DNA of 64,000 bases from an alpha proteobacterium BAL199 (GTDB taxonomy: Bacteria; Pseudomonadota; Alphaproteobacteria; Thalassobaculales; Thalassobaculaceae), in assembly GCA_000171835.1 (NCBI GenBank), contig ABHC01000008.1, positions 62,001 to 126,000 of the forward strand, written 5' to 3'. The notes under the pieces are model-generated. The model had not been told where the DNA came from. It searched no databases and worked only from the letters and a program-made list of their open reading frames with translations. A program made the translations under genes and the position numbers. Below are positions 5,124 to 55,400 of this stretch, in pieces; the stretch's first letter is position 1, and each line of letters opens with the position of its first letter.

Positions 5124-5999
5124 ATGGTCAGGTGGCGCGGACGGGAATCCAGCCAAAACGTCGAGGATCGCCGCGCAGCCAGCGGTGGCGGCAGATCCCT
5201 GCCGATGCTTCTGTTGCGCCTCGTGTTTACTCGGTTCGGCATTGTCGGCGTGGCGGCCCTTGCCGGCGGCTACTTCGCGCTTCAGGCGGTCGGAATCGAC
5301 CCTATGCTGTTGCTGGCGCCCCAAAGCGAGCAACAACAGCGACCGCAGTCGTCTGCCAGCAACGAGCAGTTCGCCTTCGCCAGTATCATCCTGGCCGAGA
5401 CGGAGACCGTCTGGGAGGCGCTCTTTGCGGCATCGGGTGGGCGCTATCCGCCTCCGACCCTGGTGGTGTTCAGCGGCCAGGTCCATTCGGACTGCGGCGC
5501 CGCCAGCAGCGCCTCGGGACCGTTTTACTGTCCGGCAGACCAGAAAATTTACCTGGACACCACTTTTTTCGGTGAACTCGCACAGCGGTTTCGGGCGCCT
5601 GGTGACTTCGCCGCCGCCTATGTCATCGCGCACGAGGTCGGCCACCACGTTCAGGATCTAGTCGGGACCTTGTCGGACGTTCATCAACGTCAGGCCGGAC
5701 TGGGGCCGGCCGCAATCAACGCCCTGCAGGTGCAGGTTGAACTACAGGCCGACTGTTACGCCGGGCTGTGGGCCCACCACGCCGAGCGCACCGCCGGCTT
5801 GCTCGAGGAAGGGGACATCGCTGAAGGAATGGCAGCGGCGGCCGCGATCGGCGACGACCGGCTGCAACGCAATTCCGGGCGCCGCGTCGACCCGGAATCG
5901 TTCACTCACGGCACGTCCCAGCAGCGTCAGCGGTGGTTCCTGCGCGGCTACCGAAGCGGCGAAACCGGGGCCTGCGATACCTTCGCAGGCCCTCTCTAA
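5124..5999 (+). CDS. Neutral zinc metallopeptidase, YpfJ family
   Basis: Membrane-anchored putative zinc peptidase of the YpfJ/KPN_02809 family (COG2321), 291 residues. One transmembrane helix lies at about residues 33-53, so the catalytic part is probably periplasmic. The zincin motif HEVGH is at 170-174, followed by HVQDLVG. A later acidic stretch, VELQADCYAGLWAHH, supplies the third ligand region typical of this family. The segment SGPFYCPADQKIYLDTTFF is also diagnostic. AAAGGAA precedes the ATG. Substrate unknown. The 3' end of the coding sequence forms part of a terminator hairpin. Confidence 0.93.
   Translation: MVRWRGRESSQNVEDRRAASGGGRSLPMLLLRLVFTRFGIVGVAALAGGYFALQAVGIDPMLLLAPQSEQQQRPQSSASNEQFAFASIILAETETVWEALFAASGGRYPPPTLVVFSGQVHSDCGAASSASGPFYCPADQKIYLDTTFFGELAQRFRAPGDFAAAYVIAHEVGHHVQDLVGTLSDVHQRQAGLGPAAINALQVQVELQADCYAGLWAHHAERTAGLLEEGDIAEGMAAAAAIGDDRLQRNSGRRVDPESFTHGTSQQRQRWFLRGYRSGETGACDTFAGPL
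5968..5992. terminator. Terminator overlapping the end of the metallopeptidase gene
   Basis: The stem GGGCCTGCGA (5968-5977) pairs with TCGCAGGCCC (5983-5992) around a five-base loop, just before the stop codon. It separates the convergent peptidase and sugar-kinase genes, whose ends are only 7 bases apart. There is no clear T-run. Confidence 0.5.
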
Positions 6000-45044: not shown

Positions 45045-46163
45045 TCAGGACTTCGGCGCAACGTCGCCGACCTCGACGTAGTTGCCCTTGGTCCACTCGT
45101 ACCAAGTGTAGTCGGCCGTGGTCCGGTCGCCGTTCTTGTCGAACGACAGCGAGCCAATCACCGAGGAGTACTCGCCGCTGTGCAAGGCGGCTTGGACCTT
45201 CTTCGCATCAATCGAGCCAGCCTTCGTCACCGCCGCCGCCCAGATCTGGATCGCGGAGTAGGTGTAGAGGGTGTAGCCCTCAGGATCGTAACCTTCGGCC
45301 TTGAACTTATCGACGATCGTCTTGGCTTCCGGCTTCGCGCGGGGATCCGGCGCGAAGGTGAACAGCAGGCCTTCACCGGCATCGCCGGTGATCGACCAGA
45401 ACTCCGCCGTGTTCAGCGCATCACCGGAAACCACCTGGGCCTTCAGGCCCTGCGAGCGCATCTGCCGGACGATCAGCCCGAGCTCGGTGTGGTAGCCGCC
45501 GTAGTACAGCGCGTCGATGTTGGCAGCCTTCAGCTTGGTCACGAACGCCGAATAATCACGCTCGCCCGGATTGACGGTCTCGTACAGCGCAACCTTGCCA
45601 CCGGCCTTCTCGAACGCGGCCTTGGTCAAATCGGCCAGCCCCTTGGAATAGGCCTGCTTGTCGTGCGCGAACGCAACGGTCTTGCCCTTGTAGTGCTTGG
45701 CCAGCCACGCACCGGCGACATCGCCCTGCTGGTCGTCGCGACCACAGTTCCGGAACACGTTGGCGAAGCCCTGCTCGGTGAACTTCGGGTTGGTCGACGC
45801 CGGGGACATCTGCACGATGCCCTCTTCGTTGTAGACCGCCGAAGCCGGGATCGACGAACCCGAGCAGAAGTGACCGGCGACGAACTTGATGCCGTCGTTC
45901 ACGAACTTGTTGGCAACCGCGACCGCTTCCTTAGGGTCGCACCGGTCGTCGCCGACCGACAGCACCAGCTGCTGGCCGAGCACGCCGCCGGCCGCATTGA
46001 TGTCGCGAACCGCCGCCATCGCGCCCTTTTGCATCTGCTCACCGAACGATGCGTATTGGCCGGTCATTGGCCCGGCAGTCGCGATCTTGATTTCCGCGTG
46101 AGCGCTGGCGGCCGTGAGACCCAACAGCGCCGCAGCCGCGGCCGTGACCATGTACCTCTTCAT
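45045..46163 (-). CDS. Branched-chain amino-acid ABC transporter binding protein (LivJ/LivK type)
   Basis: Periplasmic receptor of the Leu/Ile/Val class, 372 residues. Signal peptide MKRYMVTAAAAALLGLTAAS ending at AHA before EIKIATAG. The mature protein has AGPMTGQYASFGEQMQKGAM, the cysteine pair in GDDRCDPKEA and FRNCGRD, and VSGDALNTAEFWSITGDA, all typical. It is the last gene of the liv operon on this strand, unlike many operons where it is first. GAGGAGAC precedes the ATG. In this family ligands also include aromatic compounds and urea, so amino-acid specificity is an assumption. Confidence 0.94.
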   Translation of the reverse strand: MKRYMVTAAAAALLGLTAASAHAEIKIATAGPMTGQYASFGEQMQKGAMAAVRDINAAGGVLGQQLVLSVGDDRCDPKEAVAVANKFVNDGIKFVAGHFCSGSSIPASAVYNEEGIVQMSPASTNPKFTEQGFANVFRNCGRDDQQGDVAGAWLAKHYKGKTVAFAHDKQAYSKGLADLTKAAFEKAGGKVALYETVNPGERDYSAFVTKLKAANIDALYYGGYHTELGLIVRQMRSQGLKAQVVSGDALNTAEFWSITGDAGEGLLFTFAPDPRAKPEAKTIVDKFKAEGYDPEGYTLYTYSAIQIWAAAVTKAGSIDAKKVQAALHSGEYSSVIGSLSFDKNGDRTTADYTWYEWTKGNYVEVGDVAPKS

Positions 46164-46233
46164 CTGCGAAGTCTCCTCTATCGATCGTCTTCATTACTTC
46201 GGCACCGGGTAGCAGCCTGGAAGACACAAGCTG

Positions 46234-46620
46234 CTAGTCGGTCGCCGTCTTGGCGTGAGACGCACCGCCAAAATCCGTTCCAGGAACCGCTCGCCAGCTC
46301 AGCGAGCCGGTCCGTTCGTACAACCATGGGTACTGGGACACCATCATGTCCACCTCGTTCCACCGGAACGCCAACGCGGCGACCGTCAGGAACATCGCCA
46401 GCGCGATCGCGAAGCCCATTGGATCCAGAAGCGAAGCGTCGCGCAAGGCAAACAGCAGGAACCGATCGGCCATTGCGATCAAGACCGCGTAGCCCAACGC
46501 GACCTTGATCGACCGCCAGCCGCGCGCCGCTGCCTGACCCGCCAACCAGCTGCACAGCCCGAACACGATCGCCAGGATGATGAACACCGGTAACGACTTC
46601 GACAGGATCGCCTGGTCCAT
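46234..46620 (-). CDS. Small membrane protein of liv operons (DUF6867-like)
   Basis: A 128-residue integral membrane protein with two or three helices: SLPVFIILAIVFGLCSWLAGQ, ALGYAVLIAMADRFLLFAL and a third at MGFAIALAMFLTVAALAF. The C-terminal YPWLYERTGSLSWRAV is conserved-looking. In Alphaproteobacteria such genes sit in liv operons (DUF6867 from memory), between livF and the binding protein as here. A GTG directly before the ATG allows a four-base overlap with the livF stop; I use the ATG (TGATG). Function unknown; an accessory subunit is possible. Confidence 0.75.
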   Translation of the reverse strand: MDQAILSKSLPVFIILAIVFGLCSWLAGQAAARGWRSIKVALGYAVLIAMADRFLLFALRDASLLDPMGFAIALAMFLTVAALAFRWNEVDMMVSQYPWLYERTGSLSWRAVPGTDFGGASHAKTATD

Positions 46621-47333
46621 CACGCGTGGCCTCCCTCAAGATAGGCTGCCTTCACCTCGGGGTTCTCCAACAACTCACGCCCGGTGCCGGTCATGGTAAT
46701 CTGACCCGTCACCATCACATAGCCTCGGTGCGCCAATCGCAGCGCATGGTGGGCGTTCTGCTCGACCAGCAGCACGGTCATCCGGCGCTGGCTGTTGATG
46801 CGGTGGATCGCTTCAAAGATCTGCTTCACCACCAGCGGCGCCAGTCCAAGCGACGGCTCGTCAAGCAGCAGGAGCGTCGGCTCGCTCATCAGCGCCCGGC
46901 CGATTGCCAGCATCTGCTGCTCGCCGCCGGACAGCGTCCCGCCCCGCTGGCCCTCGCGCTCCTTCAGTCGCGGAAACAGCTCGAACACCGTCGCGAGATT
47001 GTCGTCATAGCGTGCCGGGTCCGACGTCAGCGCCCCCATTCGCAGGTTTTCCAGCACACTCATCCGCGGAAAGATCCGGCGCCCCTCGGGCGAGCAGGCG
47101 ATGCCGCGCCGCACGATGTTGTCGGTCCGCTCGGCCGTGATGTCGTTGCTGTCGAAGACGATCTGGCCCCGTCGGGCCGGCGTCACGCCGCAGATCGTCA
47201 TCAGCAGAGTCGACTTGCCCGCACCGTTCGCGCCGATCATGGCGACGATCTCGCCTTCTTCGACGTGCAGATCGACGCCCTTCAGCGCTTCAATCGCGCC
47301 ATAGAAGGTGTGCACTCCCTCGATCCGGAGCAT
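46620..47333 (-). CDS. livF: Branched-chain amino-acid ABC transporter ATP-binding protein LivF
   Basis: Cytoplasmic ATPase subunit of the liv transporter, 237 residues. Walker A GANGAGKST, signature LSGGEQQMLAIGRAL and Walker B LLLLDEPSLGL are all intact. The short H-loop region LLVEQNAHHALRLAHRGYVM is typical of LivF. It overlaps livG (TGATG) and is followed by the DUF6867-like gene. Paired with LivG it drives the LivHM channel. A GTG one codon earlier is an alternative start. Confidence 0.95.
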   Translation of the reverse strand: MLRIEGVHTFYGAIEALKGVDLHVEEGEIVAMIGANGAGKSTLLMTICGVTPARRGQIVFDSNDITAERTDNIVRRGIACSPEGRRIFPRMSVLENLRMGALTSDPARYDDNLATVFELFPRLKEREGQRGGTLSGGEQQMLAIGRALMSEPTLLLLDEPSLGLAPLVVKQIFEAIHRINSQRRMTVLLVEQNAHHALRLAHRGYVMVTGQITMTGTGRELLENPEVKAAYLEGGHA

Positions 47334-48136
47334 CACGCCACCTCCTCTTCGCCGAGATAGGCGGCGATGACACGCGGGTCGCTCTGGATCTCGGCAGGTG
47401 TGCCATCGGCGATCTTCTTGCCGTAGTCGAGGACGATAACGTGGTCGGAAATCTTCATGACCACGCTCATGTCATGCTCGATCAGCAGCACGCCGATGCC
47501 TTTCTCCTTGCGCAGCAACAACAGCAAGTCGTTGAGCTGCCCGGACTCCCGAGGATTGAGGCCGGCCGCCGGTTCGTCCAGGCAAAGCAGCACCGGATCG
47601 GAGCACATCGCCCGGATGATCTCGAGCCGCCGCTGTGCGCCATAGGGCAGGTTTCCGGCTTGCCAGTCCGCGACCTCGACGAGATCCGCCAGTTCCATGT
47701 AGTGGCGGGCCTTCTCGATCGCAGCATCTTCAGCGTGCCGGTAGCTCGGCAACCCCAGCATCCCGGAAACCGAATACCAACTGGCCCGCATCAGGTTGGT
47801 GTGCTGCGCCACCAGCAGGTTCTCCAGCACGGTCATGCGCGGAAACAACCGGATGTTCTGGAAGGTCCGAGCCACTTTGGCGTCCCGGCCGATCCGGTAG
47901 GCCTCCAGCCGTTCCAGCAGGAAGCGTTTGCCATCCGCCTGCTCCAACCGCAGTCGACCGACAGTCGGCTGATAGAAGCCGGTCAGGCAGTTGAACATCG
48001 TGGTCTTACCCGCGCCATTCGGCCCGATAATACCGGTGATCTCGCCGTCCCAGGCCGTGAAGCTCACATCGTCGACCGCCGTCAGGCCGCCGAACCGCAT
48101 GGTCAAGTGCTCGACCGAAAGAAGCGCGCGCGTCAT
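47333..48136 (-). CDS. livG: Branched-chain amino-acid ABC transporter ATP-binding protein LivG
   Basis: Second ATPase subunit of the liv transporter, 267 residues. Walker [13 protein letters not shown], signature-like [15 protein letters not shown], Walker [14 protein letters not shown], and the H-loop [13 protein letters not shown]. The insertion with [19 protein letters not shown] is the LivG-specific helical part. The start overlaps the livM stop by four bases, so translation is coupled. The chain ends [11 protein letters not shown], a common LivG ending. Confidence 0.95.
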
Positions 48137-49686
48137 TCCGCTGCCTCCCCGGCCGCGGCCACCGGTCTCGTGGACGGGCGCCCAGGCCCCGGCGGTGGCC
48201 GATTGGCCAGCAACACCGACGGCTCGCGATGCGACAGCAAACCGCGCGGCCGCCAGATCATGATCATGACGAGGCCGGCTCCGAAAGCGACCATCCGGTA
48301 CTCGGCCAGATCCCGGAAAACCTCCGGCAAGCCGATCAGCAACAACGCTGCGATCGCGATCCCGACCAGTGAGCCCATGCCCCCCATGACGACGATCGCC
48401 AGGATGATGGCGCTTTCGATGAACGTGAAGCTTTCAGGACTGATGAAGCCCTGGCGGGTGGCGAAGAACGCGCCTGCGAAGCCGCCCCACGCCGCCGAGA
48501 TCCCGAATGCCGCCAGCTTGATGGTCGTCCGATTGATACCGAGCGAGGCGCAGGCGATATCGTCCTCACGCAACGCCTCCCAGGCGCGGCCGATCGGCAA
48601 CTTGCGGATTCGCACCGTGAACAATGCCACCAAGGCCGCCATCGCCACGATCAGATAGTACAGGAAGATGATCCTGTGCTCCGACGAGTACTCCAGTCCG
48701 AAATACTCATGGAACGGCGGCAGCCCGTCGGATCCGTTTCTGGTCATCGACGCCAGGCCGAAGAAATCCGGCCGTGGGATGCCCGAAATGCCGTCCGGAC
48801 CGTTCGTCACGTCGTACCAGTTGATCAGTACGATCCGAACGATCTCTCCAAACCCGAGGGTCACGATCGCGAAATAGTCGCCACGCAATCGCAGCACCGG
48901 GAAACCCAGGATCAGGCCGAATGAGGCCGCCAGCAATCCGGCGAACGGCAGCGCAAGCCAGAAACTGATGCCGAGATGCTGCGCCGCCAGCGCGTAGGAG
49001 TATGCCCCAACGGCATAGAACGCGACAAAACCAAGATCCAACAGGCCGGCGTAGCCAACGATGATGTTCAGCCCCCAGCCGAGCATGACATAGGTGACGA
49101 TCAGGGTGGCGACGTCGATGACGTAGCGATTCGAGAAGGGCAGGAACGGCAAGGTTAGCGCGAACACCACGGCGATCGCCGCGAACACCTTGACCAGTTT
49201 GCGGACCTGATCGCCGATCGCTTCGGCGCGCGCGTCGCGATCGGCCTTGGTCGTCGACGAGTTTCGCCGGCTGACCTGAACGATGGCTCGGATCGCCAGG
49301 ATCGCCCCACCGACGCCGGTCAGAAACGACAGCGTGTAGGTTGGCGTAATCGCCGGCCAGGAGATAATGCCCAGGAGATGCGTCATGCCGTCGCGAAACA
49401 GATCCAGCACGCCGATCGCAGCGGCGATTCCGCCTCCGATCGCGACCCATGACTCCCGCCCGGGCGTCCGCAGCAGAATGATCCCAAACCGACCGAGCAC
49501 CAACATCACAACGATGAAGATCGTGCTGCCCCATCGGCTGGCGAGTTGCAATCCACCAGCGGCATCAATCGTCTCGTAGGCGACCAGGGGTACCGTCAAC
49601 GCAAGGCCGGCGAGCGCGGTCAGGCAGAGTTCCTTGAGCACGGCCTCAAGTCCGGGCCGGGCAGCCTCAACAGTCGAAGTGCTCAT
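48133..49686 (-). CDS. livM: Branched-chain amino-acid ABC transporter permease LivM
   Basis: Integral membrane permease, 517 residues, with about ten helices. LivM proteins of the short kind are about 320-350 residues; this one has an N-terminal extension with three or more additional helices (about residues 15-125), a form common in Alphaproteobacteria. The core carries [22 protein letters not shown] and the EAA-type loop [20 protein letters not shown] that contacts the ATPase. The C-terminus is long, Pro- and Arg-rich ([13 protein letters not shown]). It overlaps livG and lies one base from the livH stop. Confidence 0.94.
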
Positions 49687-49687
49687 G

Positions 49688-50593
<906 letters not shown>

Positions 50594-50910
50594 ATCCCCC
50601 CATCCGGCGGTTCGGTTGCTCAGGGAGCGCACTCACTGGCGACCCTTGGGCCGCCAGTGAGTGCGTTCTCGTCCGGTCCGAACCTGCCTGTCTCGAGCCC
50701 CTGTTCTGTCTCACGCGGCCATTGTCGCGGAGACACAGTGTACCCTCTTTTAATCCAGCCGCGCCTCGGGATAAAGCGGACATCAGACGGATCATCCAAT
50801 AATTGCGTGACGAAGAATTAATTGGATACCGCTTCCGTTTCAGCATACCGTTGTCAAAGGAAATTCAGCGGTTTGCCGAGAGCAAGTCGATGACGATCAG
50901 GGAGGGTGCT
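50594..50910. other. Intergenic region between the liv operon and the exported-protein cluster
   Basis: A 317-base divergent region. It contains a strong hairpin at 50627-50666 close to livH and GGAGGG before the gene at 50911. Between them I see no gene. Promoters of both sides must lie here, but I cannot fix -10 or -35 elements with confidence. Confidence 0.5.
50627..50666. promoter_or_regulatory. 14-bp hairpin in the liv leader
   Basis: CGCACTCACTGGCG (50628-50641) and CGCCAGTGAGTGCG (50652-50665) form a perfect 14-bp inverted repeat around a 10-base loop, with one extra G-T pair. It lies 34 bases before livH. Neither strand shows a T-run after it, so it is more likely an operator or structured leader than a terminator. 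Confidence 0.6.
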
Positions 50911-51240
50911 ATGCGTAAATTGATGGCGGTGGGGGCGGTGGCAGTCGTGCTCGCGACAGCGCCGGTCGCCCCGGCGGCGGCGGACCAAATCACCACCAAG
51001 ACCCTAGCCTATACTTTCGTGCTCGCGCTGGCCGGCACGGCCGCTGGCGCAATGCTGGTCCCATACGCCGCTCCGATGGCTGCACCCTATGTTGCAGGAG
51101 CGTACGCGACGACGGCGACCGCCGTGAACAGCGCGATAACCGGATTGGGGGGGCTATTGCTGACCGAACCCCGGATGACTGGTGCTGTGCTCGGCATGGG
51201 CGCCGGCCTGATGAGCGGCCTGTACTACTTCCAAGAATAG
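50911..51240 (+). CDS. Small exported membrane protein, unknown
   Basis: A 109-residue protein with a signal peptide of about 24 residues (MRKLMAVGAVAVVLATAPVA, cleavage after AAA before DQ). The mature part has a hydrophobic segment (about 32-55), an Ala/Gly/Thr-rich stretch with AAPYVAGAYATTATAV, and a last hydrophobic segment near the end (GAVLGMGAGLMSGLYY). It may be a small membrane-associated protein in the inner or outer membrane. AGGGAGGG precedes the ATG. It is the first gene of the unexplained cluster and has no family I recognise. The 88-base gap to the next gene leaves the operon uncertain. Confidence 0.6.
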   Translation: MRKLMAVGAVAVVLATAPVAPAAADQITTKTLAYTFVLALAGTAAGAMLVPYAAPMAAPYVAGAYATTATAVNSAITGLGGLLLTEPRMTGAVLGMGAGLMSGLYYFQE

Positions 51241-51328: not shown

Positions 51329-52516
51329 ATGCATTTTCGGTACCTTTTATCGGCCTGTTTGGCCGTACTCGCCGGAGCTTTGTGTAGCGCTCCTGCCTTG
51401 GCGAATGATCTTGGCAGCCAGCATCAGGGGCGATTGAGCCTGTCTTCACGGCAAGTCCCGCTGCCGATCGGTGAATGGACGGTCGTCGGTCACGGCACCA
51501 ACAAGCTGGTGAGCGGCGCGCCCGGCGCCTTCGGCATGATCGAGAACACCATCCTTGCCCGTCGGGTCGATGGCAGGATCGACGCCCTAATCGAAATCAA
51601 CGTAAACCGACTGCCGGTCAGCAATGGCTGGGGATCAGCCAACGCCTGCAGTGCCAAGGATGGACTGGCGACCGTCGCGTTCTACAAGACCGGTGTCGAC
51701 GGCTTCTGCCTGTTCGTCCAGCCGACCGAATTGGGTGCTCCCAATGCACCGGGTCCGGACGCTTGGCTCGCCGCCCGTCCATTGCTCCACGAAGGCGCGT
51801 CACCGCCGTCCGACCTATGGCTGACGGTAGGGTTCCGGGTTTCGGACCGTCGGGATGTCCTCGACGTGCGCTATCATTTCGATCCCAGCCGGTTGAACCT
51901 ACAGCCCGTGCCGGCTCAGGATTGGAAGCTTGAGGCGGTCCTGAAGGCGCCAGACCGGTACGCAGCGGTCAATCAGTTGACCACCTGGGGCGGTCTGGCT
52001 GCCGGGCTGGTCCAGGATGGCTTCTGGAACAGCCTGTCCGAGCAGACCGCGACCGCCGCCCTGCCGAACCCCTGGGAAGTCGCGATTTCAGCTGACACCG
52101 CGAATGGTCATCCCTCCACCGCCGCCACCGGACGGGTGAGTGCAACGGCGCGGGTCGATGCCCTGGACAAGCTCTTGGCGTCCGGCGTGATCAGCGCCGC
52201 TGATCACGCCGCCTACCTTAAAGCGATCAACGACGAGAACGCTAAACCTCCACCGAACCCGGACGACTATTATCGATTGCTGGGGTTCAAGGTGATTTCG
52301 TTCAACTTCTTTCGCGTCTCGGTCGACTACATCCTGGCCTTCGTCGTCACCGTCAACTCTTTGATATCCGGCTATATCACGGCAACAATCGTGGCAACCC
52401 ACAGTGTTGCCCAGGTGTTCAACGACATGTGGTGGGACAACTACATAGCCACTCAGGCCAACAGCAACACGGTCGATTTCGTCTACATCGGCTCGCGGTC
52501 GGAGGGCGTGTCTTGA
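51329..52516 (+). CDS. Exported protein with SHOCT-like and DUF2061-like C-terminus (paralogue 1)
   Basis: A 395-residue protein of unknown function, first of two tandem paralogues. Signal peptide (1-25, cleavage at ALA before NDLG). Domain N: VPLPIG at 43-48, then GRIDALIEI, a C-x19-C pair (Cys107, Cys127), and a RRDVLDVRYHFDPS segment from 174. A SHOCT-like segment (277-300, LDKLLASGVISAADHAAYL) follows. The C-terminal part (320-373, KVISFNFFRVSVDY then FNDMWWDNY) looks like a DUF2061 two-helix domain. The paired cysteines suggest a periplasmic disulfide. The stop overlaps the next start (TTGA), so translation is coupled. Domain assignments are by eye. Confidence 0.7.
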   Translation: MHFRYLLSACLAVLAGALCSAPALANDLGSQHQGRLSLSSRQVPLPIGEWTVVGHGTNKLVSGAPGAFGMIENTILARRVDGRIDALIEINVNRLPVSNGWGSANACSAKDGLATVAFYKTGVDGFCLFVQPTELGAPNAPGPDAWLAARPLLHEGASPPSDLWLTVGFRVSDRRDVLDVRYHFDPSRLNLQPVPAQDWKLEAVLKAPDRYAAVNQLTTWGGLAAGLVQDGFWNSLSEQTATAALPNPWEVAISADTANGHPSTAATGRVSATARVDALDKLLASGVISAADHAAYLKAINDENAKPPPNPDDYYRLLGFKVISFNFFRVSVDYILAFVVTVNSLISGYITATIVATHSVAQVFNDMWWDNYIATQANSNTVDFVYIGSRSEGVS

Positions 52517-53688
52517 ACCGATCCAGCAGAGCAGTGAGCACGCTTCTCGGCGCGATTGTCGTGAGCGTCCTGGCGTTTGCCGGGACCGTCCAGGCACAGA
52601 CCGTCGGCACGGTCGTCAAGGACATTGTGGACGTCGCCGGCAAGCAGGTGCCGCTTCCTCCGGGTGACTTCACCGTGCTGGCCGTCGACAGCGTGTCAGC
52701 CCGCATCAAGAAGTCGGGGACGGAAACCGAACGCCTCGACCTCGGACCGGTTCGTCTGGTGGTGCTGGGCCAGATCAAAGACGGTCGGATCGCCAATGTG
52801 GTTCAGATCGGCGCCAACCTGATCCCGTATCATGACGGCTGGGGCATGACCGAGGACTGCACCCGGTCGGATCTTTACGCCGCCGTCACGCAGTACAAGA
52901 GCGGCTGGGACGTCTCGTGTCTCTATCTCAAACCACAGGCAATCAACGGCGAGACTGCAGCGCCGGGCGGTGAAGCTATGGCGCAATTCGCCCGAACCTC
53001 GAACGCCAGTGTCAGCAACTTCTGGCTGGTCGCGGGTCTGCGCATCGCGAACCGGCGGGACGTCATCGACGTCCAGTACCATGTCGATCCGTCTTCGCTC
53101 GGCGTGACGGCATCCGCGGCGGAGGCTGCATCCTGGGCGCCGGCAGTGATCGAGCAGCACCCCAGTCGGCTCGCAGTCGTAAAAGATCTCGCTGCATGGG
53201 CCGGCCTGATGGCGGAACCGCTGGACCAGGGTCTTAACCATCGACTGACGGCCACGTCGTTTCCCGACATGCGTAATGCAGCGGCGGTTGCGCCCGATGA
53301 AGCCCGACGCGCCGCCCAGATGGCCTCCCTCGACAAGCTGCGGGATGCCAAAGCGATCGATGATGCTGAGTACCAACGCCAGATGGCGATCATCGCCGCC
53401 AGCGCCACGGCAGTTGCCGCCGGCGATTGGACGTATGCCCAGGTTGCCGGCTGGAAGGCGTTTACCTATCGCGTGGTTGTGACCACGATCAATGCTGGCA
53501 TCGACTACATGTTCATCGGTCGGCCTTTTGCCGCCGGTGTGCTGGTCATCCTGCAGGTCGTCGTGAACACCACGAAATTCTTCTTCCACGAGATGATGTG
53601 GCAGGAGATGCTGGGCATCGGGCCATTGCAGCGGGACGGTCCGAACATCATCGAGTTCGGTCGCATCATTACCGCTTCATCCGGGTGA
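52513..53688 (+). CDS. Exported protein with SHOCT-like and DUF2061-like C-terminus (paralogue 2)
   Basis: A 391-residue paralogue of the upstream gene. It starts at TTG within a TTGA overlap, with GGAGGG just before, and has a signal peptide ending VQA before QTV. Shared elements are VPLPPG (46-51), C-x19-C (Cys116, Cys136), RRDVIDVQYHVDPS (from 181), SLDKLRDAKAIDDAEYQRQM (SHOCT-like, 272-291) and KAFTYRVVVTTINAGIDYMF with FFFHEMMWQ (DUF2061-like, 315-364). The His-Glu and Trp in the last segment fit the DUF2061 pattern. A 44-base shorter linker distinguishes it. Function unknown; an adaptor or oligomeric membrane-associated complex is possible. Confidence 0.7.
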   Translation: MNRSSRAVSTLLGAIVVSVLAFAGTVQAQTVGTVVKDIVDVAGKQVPLPPGDFTVLAVDSVSARIKKSGTETERLDLGPVRLVVLGQIKDGRIANVVQIGANLIPYHDGWGMTEDCTRSDLYAAVTQYKSGWDVSCLYLKPQAINGETAAPGGEAMAQFARTSNASVSNFWLVAGLRIANRRDVIDVQYHVDPSSLGVTASAAEAASWAPAVIEQHPSRLAVVKDLAAWAGLMAEPLDQGLNHRLTATSFPDMRNAAAVAPDEARRAAQMASLDKLRDAKAIDDAEYQRQMAIIAASATAVAAGDWTYAQVAGWKAFTYRVVVTTINAGIDYMFIGRPFAAGVLVILQVVVNTTKFFFHEMMWQEMLGIGPLQRDGPNIIEFGRIITASSG

Positions 53689-54735: not shown

Positions 54736-54945
54736 TCACGGCAGCCAGTCGGCGATCACGAACGGCACGCGTTGACGCGGAACTTCCGGATGGTGCCACG
54801 CGTAGACGGTCTCAGCCGCCTCGTAGGCCACGCGCTCATCGGCGCCGGCTTCCTTCAGGGCAGAGTACGCTCGGGTAACCGCCAGGTGACACGCGGCGGT
54901 TACGGGGCAATTCGGCTCGACCATAGTGACCGATTCCTCGCTCAA
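54736..54945 (-). CDS. Small conserved protein next to fur
   Basis: A 69-residue cytoplasmic protein starting in an ATGA overlap with the fur stop. Visible features are CPVTAACHLAVTRAYSALKEAG with two Cys and a His, then AYEAAETVYAWHHPEVP. The Cys/His content could bind metal, but nothing conclusive is seen. Coupling to Fur suggests an iron-linked role. No family is recognised. Confidence 0.6.
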   Translation of the reverse strand: MSEESVTMVEPNCPVTAACHLAVTRAYSALKEAGADERVAYEAAETVYAWHHPEVPRQRVPFVIADWLP

Positions 54946-55400
54946 TGCTTCTTCTTCAGGCGGACGCCGAACAATTCGAGATGGTGATCGACCAACTCAA
55001 AGCCAAGATCGCGGGCAATCCGCTTCTTCAGGTCCTCAAGCTCCTGGTTGAAGAACTCGATCACCTCACCGCTCTGCACATCGATCATGTGATGATGGTG
55101 GTCTTCCGGGCCCGACTGCTTCTCATAGCGCGCCCGACCATCGCCGAAATCGCGCTTAGAGACGATGCTCATCTCTTCGAACAGCTTCATGGTGCGGTAG
55201 ATCGTGGCCATGGATATGGAGGAGTCGATCGCTTTGACCCGATCATACAACTCCTCGGCGTCCGGATGATCCTCGGAATCCGACAGAACCCGTGCGATCA
55301 CCCGCCGCGGCTCGGTCATCCGAAGCCCCTTCTCGGCGCACAGCGCCTCGATCCTGGACAACACACCGATCTCGTCCACCACTCCGCCTTCGACGGTCAC
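54942..55400 (-). CDS. fur: Fur family transcriptional regulator
   Basis: Metal-dependent repressor of the Fur family, 152 residues. DNA-binding N-terminal part with LRMTEPRRVIARVLSDSE and AIDSSISMATIYRTMKLFEE. The regulatory metal site is the HHHH run at 101-104, then MIDVQSGEVIEFFNQELEDL. It lacks the CxxC structural zinc site of gammaproteobacterial Fur, as do alphaproteobacterial Fur/Mur proteins, which may respond to manganese as well as iron. Fur or Mur is therefore the fair reading; Irr is less likely. It overlaps the small gene downstream. Confidence 0.9.
   Translation of the reverse strand: MTVEGGVVDEIGVLSRIEALCAEKGLRMTEPRRVIARVLSDSEDHPDAEELYDRVKAIDSSISMATIYRTMKLFEEMSIVSKRDFGDGRARYEKQSGPEDHHHHMIDVQSGEVIEFFNQELEDLKKRIARDLGFELVDHHLELFGVRLKKKH

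Follow-up and report, generated by a model that had tools for sequence, protein, structure and literature searches.

Proteins sharing the Mog1p/PsbP fold are described in two papers as assembly, stability, or membrane-complex factors (PMC7716261, PMC4524185), and an excerpt from a third terms the likeness of Tsi3 to Mog1p and PsbP loose (PMC3792639). The Eag chaperones are reported, again in excerpt, to pack against transmembrane helices (PMC7773334). Among the extracts found on DUF2061, the Caulobacter gene CC_0155 and the Shewanella gene SO_4740 each appear in a table of iron-linked genes (PMC3751524 and PMC12442407, respectively), and in Pseudomonas the gene PA3237 is reported to have an effect on resistance to polymyxin B (PMC12632274); these extracts hold hints of links to iron and envelope stress and describe no mechanism. 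The SHOCT domain has been proposed to serve oligomerization, a proposal that was unsupported in the one test reported (PMC3581485).

We analyzed a 64,000-nt stretch of the genome of the alpha proteobacterium BAL199 (the window), in which two overlapping genes, here called A and B, follow a small gene, S. All three lie on the plus strand.

Two exported paralogues and their conserved parts

Gene A (51329 to 52516) starts with ATG and encodes an exported protein of 395 residues, in which an N-terminal domain is followed by a SHOCT-like segment and a two-helix membrane hairpin; gene B (52513 to 53688) starts with TTG and encodes an exported protein of 391 residues. The first-pass annotation had reported two overlapping reading frames of these lengths, and translation bore out both the lengths and a 4-nt overlap. 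The signal peptides that it proposed are visible by eye and as hydropathy peaks, of 2.06 at residues 6 to 24 in A (leader, residues 1 to 25; 51329 to 51403) and of 2.17 at residues 8 to 26 in B (residues 1 to 28; 52513 to 52596), with the cleavage sites placed by eye. Pairwise alignment showed A and B to be homologues over almost their whole length (26% identity; E of 9e-33), and a search of the organism's own genome with A returned only A itself and B.

Alignments place the N-terminal domain at residues 28 to 232 of A (51410 to 52024) and 31 to 241 of B (52603 to 53235). Both copies contain the VPLPxG and RRDVxDVxYHxDPS motifs attributed to them (PLPxG is at residues 44 to 48 of A), and the C-x19-C pairs are where the annotation had put them, at C107/C127 in A and C116/C136 in B. 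In a 13-row alignment of seven A and six B proteins, PLP-G, both cysteines, R174, D176, Y182, and several tryptophans were invariant, whereas in the RRD motif neither the H nor the DPS was invariant. Over a wider alignment of 29 N-domain proteins (A4), which leaves out the pair-bearing loci L025 (where B is frameshifted), L028, and L029 (the last two near L027), both cysteines were present in 27 and neither in 2 (L068 and L076), and in no protein did one occur alone, although its apparent conservation is favored by the way the distant rows were collected, through a profile of sequences that all carry the pair. A further alignment (A5) omits L077 as well. The spacing was 19 to 21 residues, except for 25 in L074 and 29 in L075. 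Joint retention or loss of the cysteines is what a disulfide would predict, and the 107/127 and 116/136 pairs probably form one, as had been suggested for the periplasm. On the aligned sequences, the PLPxG motif and the cysteine pair are hallmarks of the domain.

A SHOCT-like segment had been claimed for both, and the likeness held, although the B segment (residues 269 to 292; 53317 to 53388) scored 17.4 bits against a Pfam cutoff of 27 and the A segment (residues 273 to 300; 52145 to 52228), a helical stretch aligned to that of B, had no Pfam SHOCT match. In relatives, this region gave weak, subthreshold matches to GvpG and MMOB4860. Likewise, of the DUF2061-like C termini proposed for both proteins, that of B (residues 315 to 364; 53455 to 53604) scored 36.5 bits, above the cutoff of 23.1, but that of A (residues 314 to 374; 52268 to 52450) has diverged and reached only 12.6 bits; it is related to the B hairpin through the full-length alignment only. 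The statement that both copies keep all motifs proved wrong for the tail: the KxxxYR and HExxW patterns occur in B only, and A has KVISFNFFR and NDMWW at these positions.

The hairpin is nevertheless the best-conserved part of each protein, with a mean pairwise identity of 0.77 among seven A proteins and 0.89 among six B proteins (residues 306 to 368 of B), compared to 0.56 and 0.52, respectively, for the N-terminal domains. If the leader is cleaved, a hairpin at the end of an exported protein can insert only from the periplasmic face of the membrane, and we infer that this is probably the case here. Five places in the organism's own genome exceeded the DUF2061 cutoff, namely, B, the short L091, L092, L093, and L094; in a Pfam scan, L092 had two DUF2061 stretches and L093 had one. 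By eye, L092, L093, and L094 (on contigs C69, C68, and C39, respectively) also look exported.

Distribution and modeled fold of the N-terminal domain

The annotation had claimed an N-terminal domain without a known family, and this was upheld: no Pfam or NCBIfam family reached its cutoff for the domain of A, of B, or of 10 distant members, and the best E value of a sequence-profile search of the PDB was 0.085. That match, to Development-specific protein S (1prr), and one to TatC (E of 0.27) were judged to be due to chance and were rejected.

The annotation, which presented the architecture as undescribed, overstated its uniqueness, and the N-terminal domain is not peculiar to the pair. A search of 385 alphaproteobacterial genomes matched 34, which, sorted by the positions matched, comprised 20 with the N-terminal domain (18 loci plus G000 and G026), 11 with DUF2061 only, and 3 with other parts; a search of the phylum matched at least 4 of 398 genomes, one of which (G730) lies outside the class. 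Mostly no more than four candidates per genome were scored in the class search and seven in the phylum search, and the counts are therefore lower bounds. Among the carriers, the domain follows a leader or lipobox and stands alone; is doubled within one protein (G249 and G413); is followed by a C-terminal SHOCT, above the cutoff in L074 (29.3 bits) and below it in L070 and L069; or is joined in a single gene to DUF2061, above the Pfam cutoff in both G086 (31.5 bits) and G777 (48.9 bits). In G216, a diverged tandem pair of N-domain genes (L061:7180-9274, minus strand) has hydrophobic tails that match no Pfam family, and the S profile found no S at this locus.

A lipobox pattern occurs at residues 16 to 19 in 5 of the 29 aligned rows (L066, L067, L073, L075, and L076); these five proteins end at 214 to 249 residues, and by eye they have no hairpin. 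Similar patterns at residue 10 of A and residue 18 of the B protein of G001 were judged to be chance occurrences within the leader. In G333, two adjacent genes for N-domain-like lipoproteins were seen on the minus strand (L066:6511-7230, recognized by eye only, and L066:7319-7960). The lipobox versions indicate that tethering to the membrane recurs by other means, and the single-gene fusions together with the N-domain-only proteins indicate that the domain is able to function outside the pair. We regard it as a recurring alphaproteobacterial envelope domain, unnamed in the libraries searched, with interchangeable membrane tethers.

AlphaFold2 models of B and of the N-terminal domain of A were built in separate runs from alignments of four sequences. 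The B model had a mean pLDDT of 58, with strand blocks at 83 to 89, a low-scoring cysteine loop and tail, and a very weak hairpin; the A model (residues 26 to 245) had a pLDDT of 71 and a pTM of 0.73. In both, strands dominate the domain, a helix lies between strands, and a long helix forms the C-terminal end. In Foldseek, the top rank went to GntR/UTRA effector domains with either model (E of 1.4e-3 and 1.8e-3), and nothing was returned at an E value of 0.001 or better.

We then ran a structural aligner on Foldseek's own match list. Mog1p was the best aligned chain for both models, with a Z score of 7.8 over 148 residues (within 35 to 244) for B and 8.8 over 146 residues for A; the aligner's own note states that models lacking a clear match typically reach a best Z of 7 to 8. 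For the A model, Mog1p was followed by CyanoP (7.7), the PknH ectodomain (7.4), TplEi (6.9), and Apa (6.8), then by PsbP, TiME, and BT_1490 (6.7 each), DcrB and Tsi3 (5.9), and human Mog1 (5.7). Judged by title, Mog1, PsbP/CyanoP, or DcrB account for 8 of the top 19 rows of this list; PsbP and CyanoP stand below Mog1p in the lists of both models, DcrB is in that of A, and chains outside the Mog1/PsbP group (PknH, BT_1490, TplEi, Apa, and TiME) score between 6.6 and 7.7. UTRA chains reached a Z score of 5.7 at most, over 104 to 106 residues, for A and 6.1 over 102 to 113 residues for B.

Profile-profile comparison with hhalign gave E values of 0.45 against DcrB, 0.76 against UTRA, and 0.64 against the S family, which served as a control; the DcrB and UTRA negatives are weak because only four DcrB sequences were available and several UTRA rows had been read in the wrong frame. 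The DcrB family (PF08786) was not listed for A or B in Pfam up to an E value of 10, and DcrB was found in 0 of 31 relatives and in 3 of 150 genomes of the phylum. As modeled, the N-terminal domain is likely to have a Mog1p/PsbP-like fold. By sequence it matches no named family above the cutoff in Pfam or NCBIfam, in line with the annotation, but since both models resemble a known fold, the fold itself is probably not new.

A three-gene unit and its age

Gene S (50911 to 51240), located 88 nt upstream of A, encodes a 109-residue protein with a leader visible by eye followed by hydrophobic segments rich in small residues; it has no Pfam or NCBIfam match above the cutoff. An S homologue lies directly upstream of A in all seven pair-bearing genomes of the order and also precedes A in G383, a member of another family (E of 3.6e-23), so that the order S-A-B holds in 8 of the 8 genomes found with the pair. 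Two other genomes covered by the same search, G035 and G015, have neither the pair nor S. The tandem pair described in the annotation is therefore real, but the unit comprises three genes, the conserved S having been missed. Its distribution is patchy: of the order's 36 genomes, 7 carry it, and these represent 3 of the 12 genera; among 61 relatives searched, it was found in 7; and the family of G383 has one full pair among seven genomes. A relative of B was found in record NZ_BMZS01000003.1.

When the neighborhoods of the window, G001, G002, G006, G026, G030, G034, and G383 were compared, the corresponding genes common to different genera were S, A, and B, with no other conserved neighbor; the few further matches (L024/L025 with L027/L029 and L026 with L029) differ in place or orientation. 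The stop of A overlaps the start of B by 4 nt in all six intact pairs of the organism's own family, with the B starts as chosen in this analysis, and in G383 the genes are separated by an 11-nt gap. The annotation had suggested looking for the pair in other genomes; it is kept together in two families, which fits a heteromer.

Several features near the unit were noted. Preceding S in the window is a cluster of genes for an ABC transporter of branched-chain amino acids, recognized by eye (45045 to 50632, minus strand). In G001, which belongs to the same genus, a second S-like gene follows B (L024:5532-5852, minus strand), and in G002 B is split by a frameshift at about positions 5700 to 5720 of L025, perhaps an assembly error. 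Downstream of B, at a distance of about 1.25 kb, is a Fur-like regulator gene, also recognized by eye (54942 to 55400, minus strand), and an antisense reading suggests that such a gene follows B in G002 as well. Given this gene and the iron-linked DUF2061 genes of other bacteria, Fur boxes were sought upstream of S at eight loci. The best sites had 8 to 10 mismatches of 19 and were equaled by 12 to 99% of shuffles; being no better than shuffles, the candidate Fur box was dropped.

In a tree of 18 proteins, one branch (100/100) separated the eight A rows from the seven B rows, with three outgroup rows set aside, whose long branches leave their placement and the root unsure. Proteins of G383 are present on both sides, which argues that the duplication preceded the divergence of these lineages and that the pair has been kept since. 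The dN/dS ratios were 0.10 to 0.29 over eight comparisons of S, A, and B and 0.10 to 0.19 in the three comparisons of S alone. Judged from their sequences, A and B arose by an old duplication and have stayed under purifying selection. Searches for mobile relatives gave no match to B in a plasmid collection, and none of the 34 stretches of viral contigs that matched a pattern coded for a relative; no PADLOC anti-phage family matched A, B, or S at E values up to 1, and matches to PHROGs were weak, with a best E value of 0.072.

Possible roles and comparison with known systems

By analogy with other proteins of the Mog1p/PsbP fold, our preferred reading is that S, A, and B form one envelope unit, an inner-membrane-anchored heteromeric assembly or stability factor or chaperone with S as its partner or client. 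We give this joint reading a tentative probability of about 0.4. After export of A and B, the N-terminal domain would adopt a Mog1p/PsbP-like fold in the periplasm, and from that side the hairpin would insert into the inner membrane, with A and B pairing through their hairpins; the resulting heteromer would act as an assembly or stability factor, and S, small, hydrophobic, and exported, may be its membrane partner or client. It is from co-inheritance that we infer both the heteromer and the partnership with S.

The strong conservation of the hairpins, including their polar residues, would also be accommodated if the hairpins themselves were active, with A, B, and perhaps S building either a small channel in the inner membrane or a bundle that binds ions, metal, or heme, while the N-terminal domain serves as a periplasmic gate or sensor. 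The iron-linked tables and the polymyxin B phenotype cited above for DUF2061 genes, as far as those excerpts go, point in the same direction; however, these data come from DUF2061 genes of other bacteria, no channel family was matched, and the search for a Fur box before S at the eight loci was negative. We therefore consider a hairpin-centered channel or metal role the main functional rival, albeit an unlikely one. A and B could instead be plain structural envelope proteins in which the hairpin is a mere anchor and the pair is redundant, a reading about equally doubtful: the lipoprotein-like versions of the N-terminal domain show that anchoring is interchangeable, but a part that does no more than anchor would not need to be the best conserved, and both copies have been retained since an old duplication.

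Less probable than either is a periplasmic UTRA-like ligand-binding domain, which would make A and B membrane-tethered small-molecule sensors or scavengers. Although GntR effector-binding domains lead the Foldseek ranking for both models, the aligner places Mog1p above UTRA over a longer span in both cases, neither protein has an output domain, and no sequence link to UTRA was found in a comparison that, with its misread rows, is a poor test.

Four described systems come closest to the locus. The B tail resembles DUF2061 (PF09834) in its K...YR and HExxW patterns and above-cutoff score, and the single-gene proteins G777 and G086 also exceed the cutoff, but in A and B the hairpin closes a protein that is exported and so probably enters from the periplasm, and the A copy has diverged below the cutoff. 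S-A-B offers a compact, co-inherited handle on what exported DUF2061 hairpins do. With SHOCT (PF09851), the locus shares a segment preceding the hairpin, and a true SHOCT ends the N-domain carrier L074, whereas in A and B the segment is internal and below the cutoff. Mog1p/PsbP-like proteins (Mog1, PsbP, CyanoP, DcrB, and PA0094) have a domain layout comparable to that of our models, which align best with chains of this group; they differ in that no sequence similarity to them was found, the N-terminal domain of A and B, with its C-x19-C pair and PLPxG motif, being a separate sequence family, and in that this domain is fused to a membrane hairpin.

The Eag chaperones (DUF1795) of type VI secretion have a fold similar to that modeled here (EagT6 complex 6xrf; Z of 5.0), but they are cytoplasmic and act on prePAAR effectors, whereas A and B bear leaders; by eye, no type VI or prePAAR effector gene was noticed among the reading frames of the window. 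It is conceivable, though quite improbable, that A and B are periplasmic counterparts, in fold, of the Eag chaperones, each equipped with a membrane hairpin of its own. The N-terminal domain would then cradle transmembrane helices in the periplasm, whether its own hairpin, that of its paralogue, or those of S, and release them into the inner membrane; were this true, S-A-B would be a self-contained device that inserts or assembles membrane helices from the outside.
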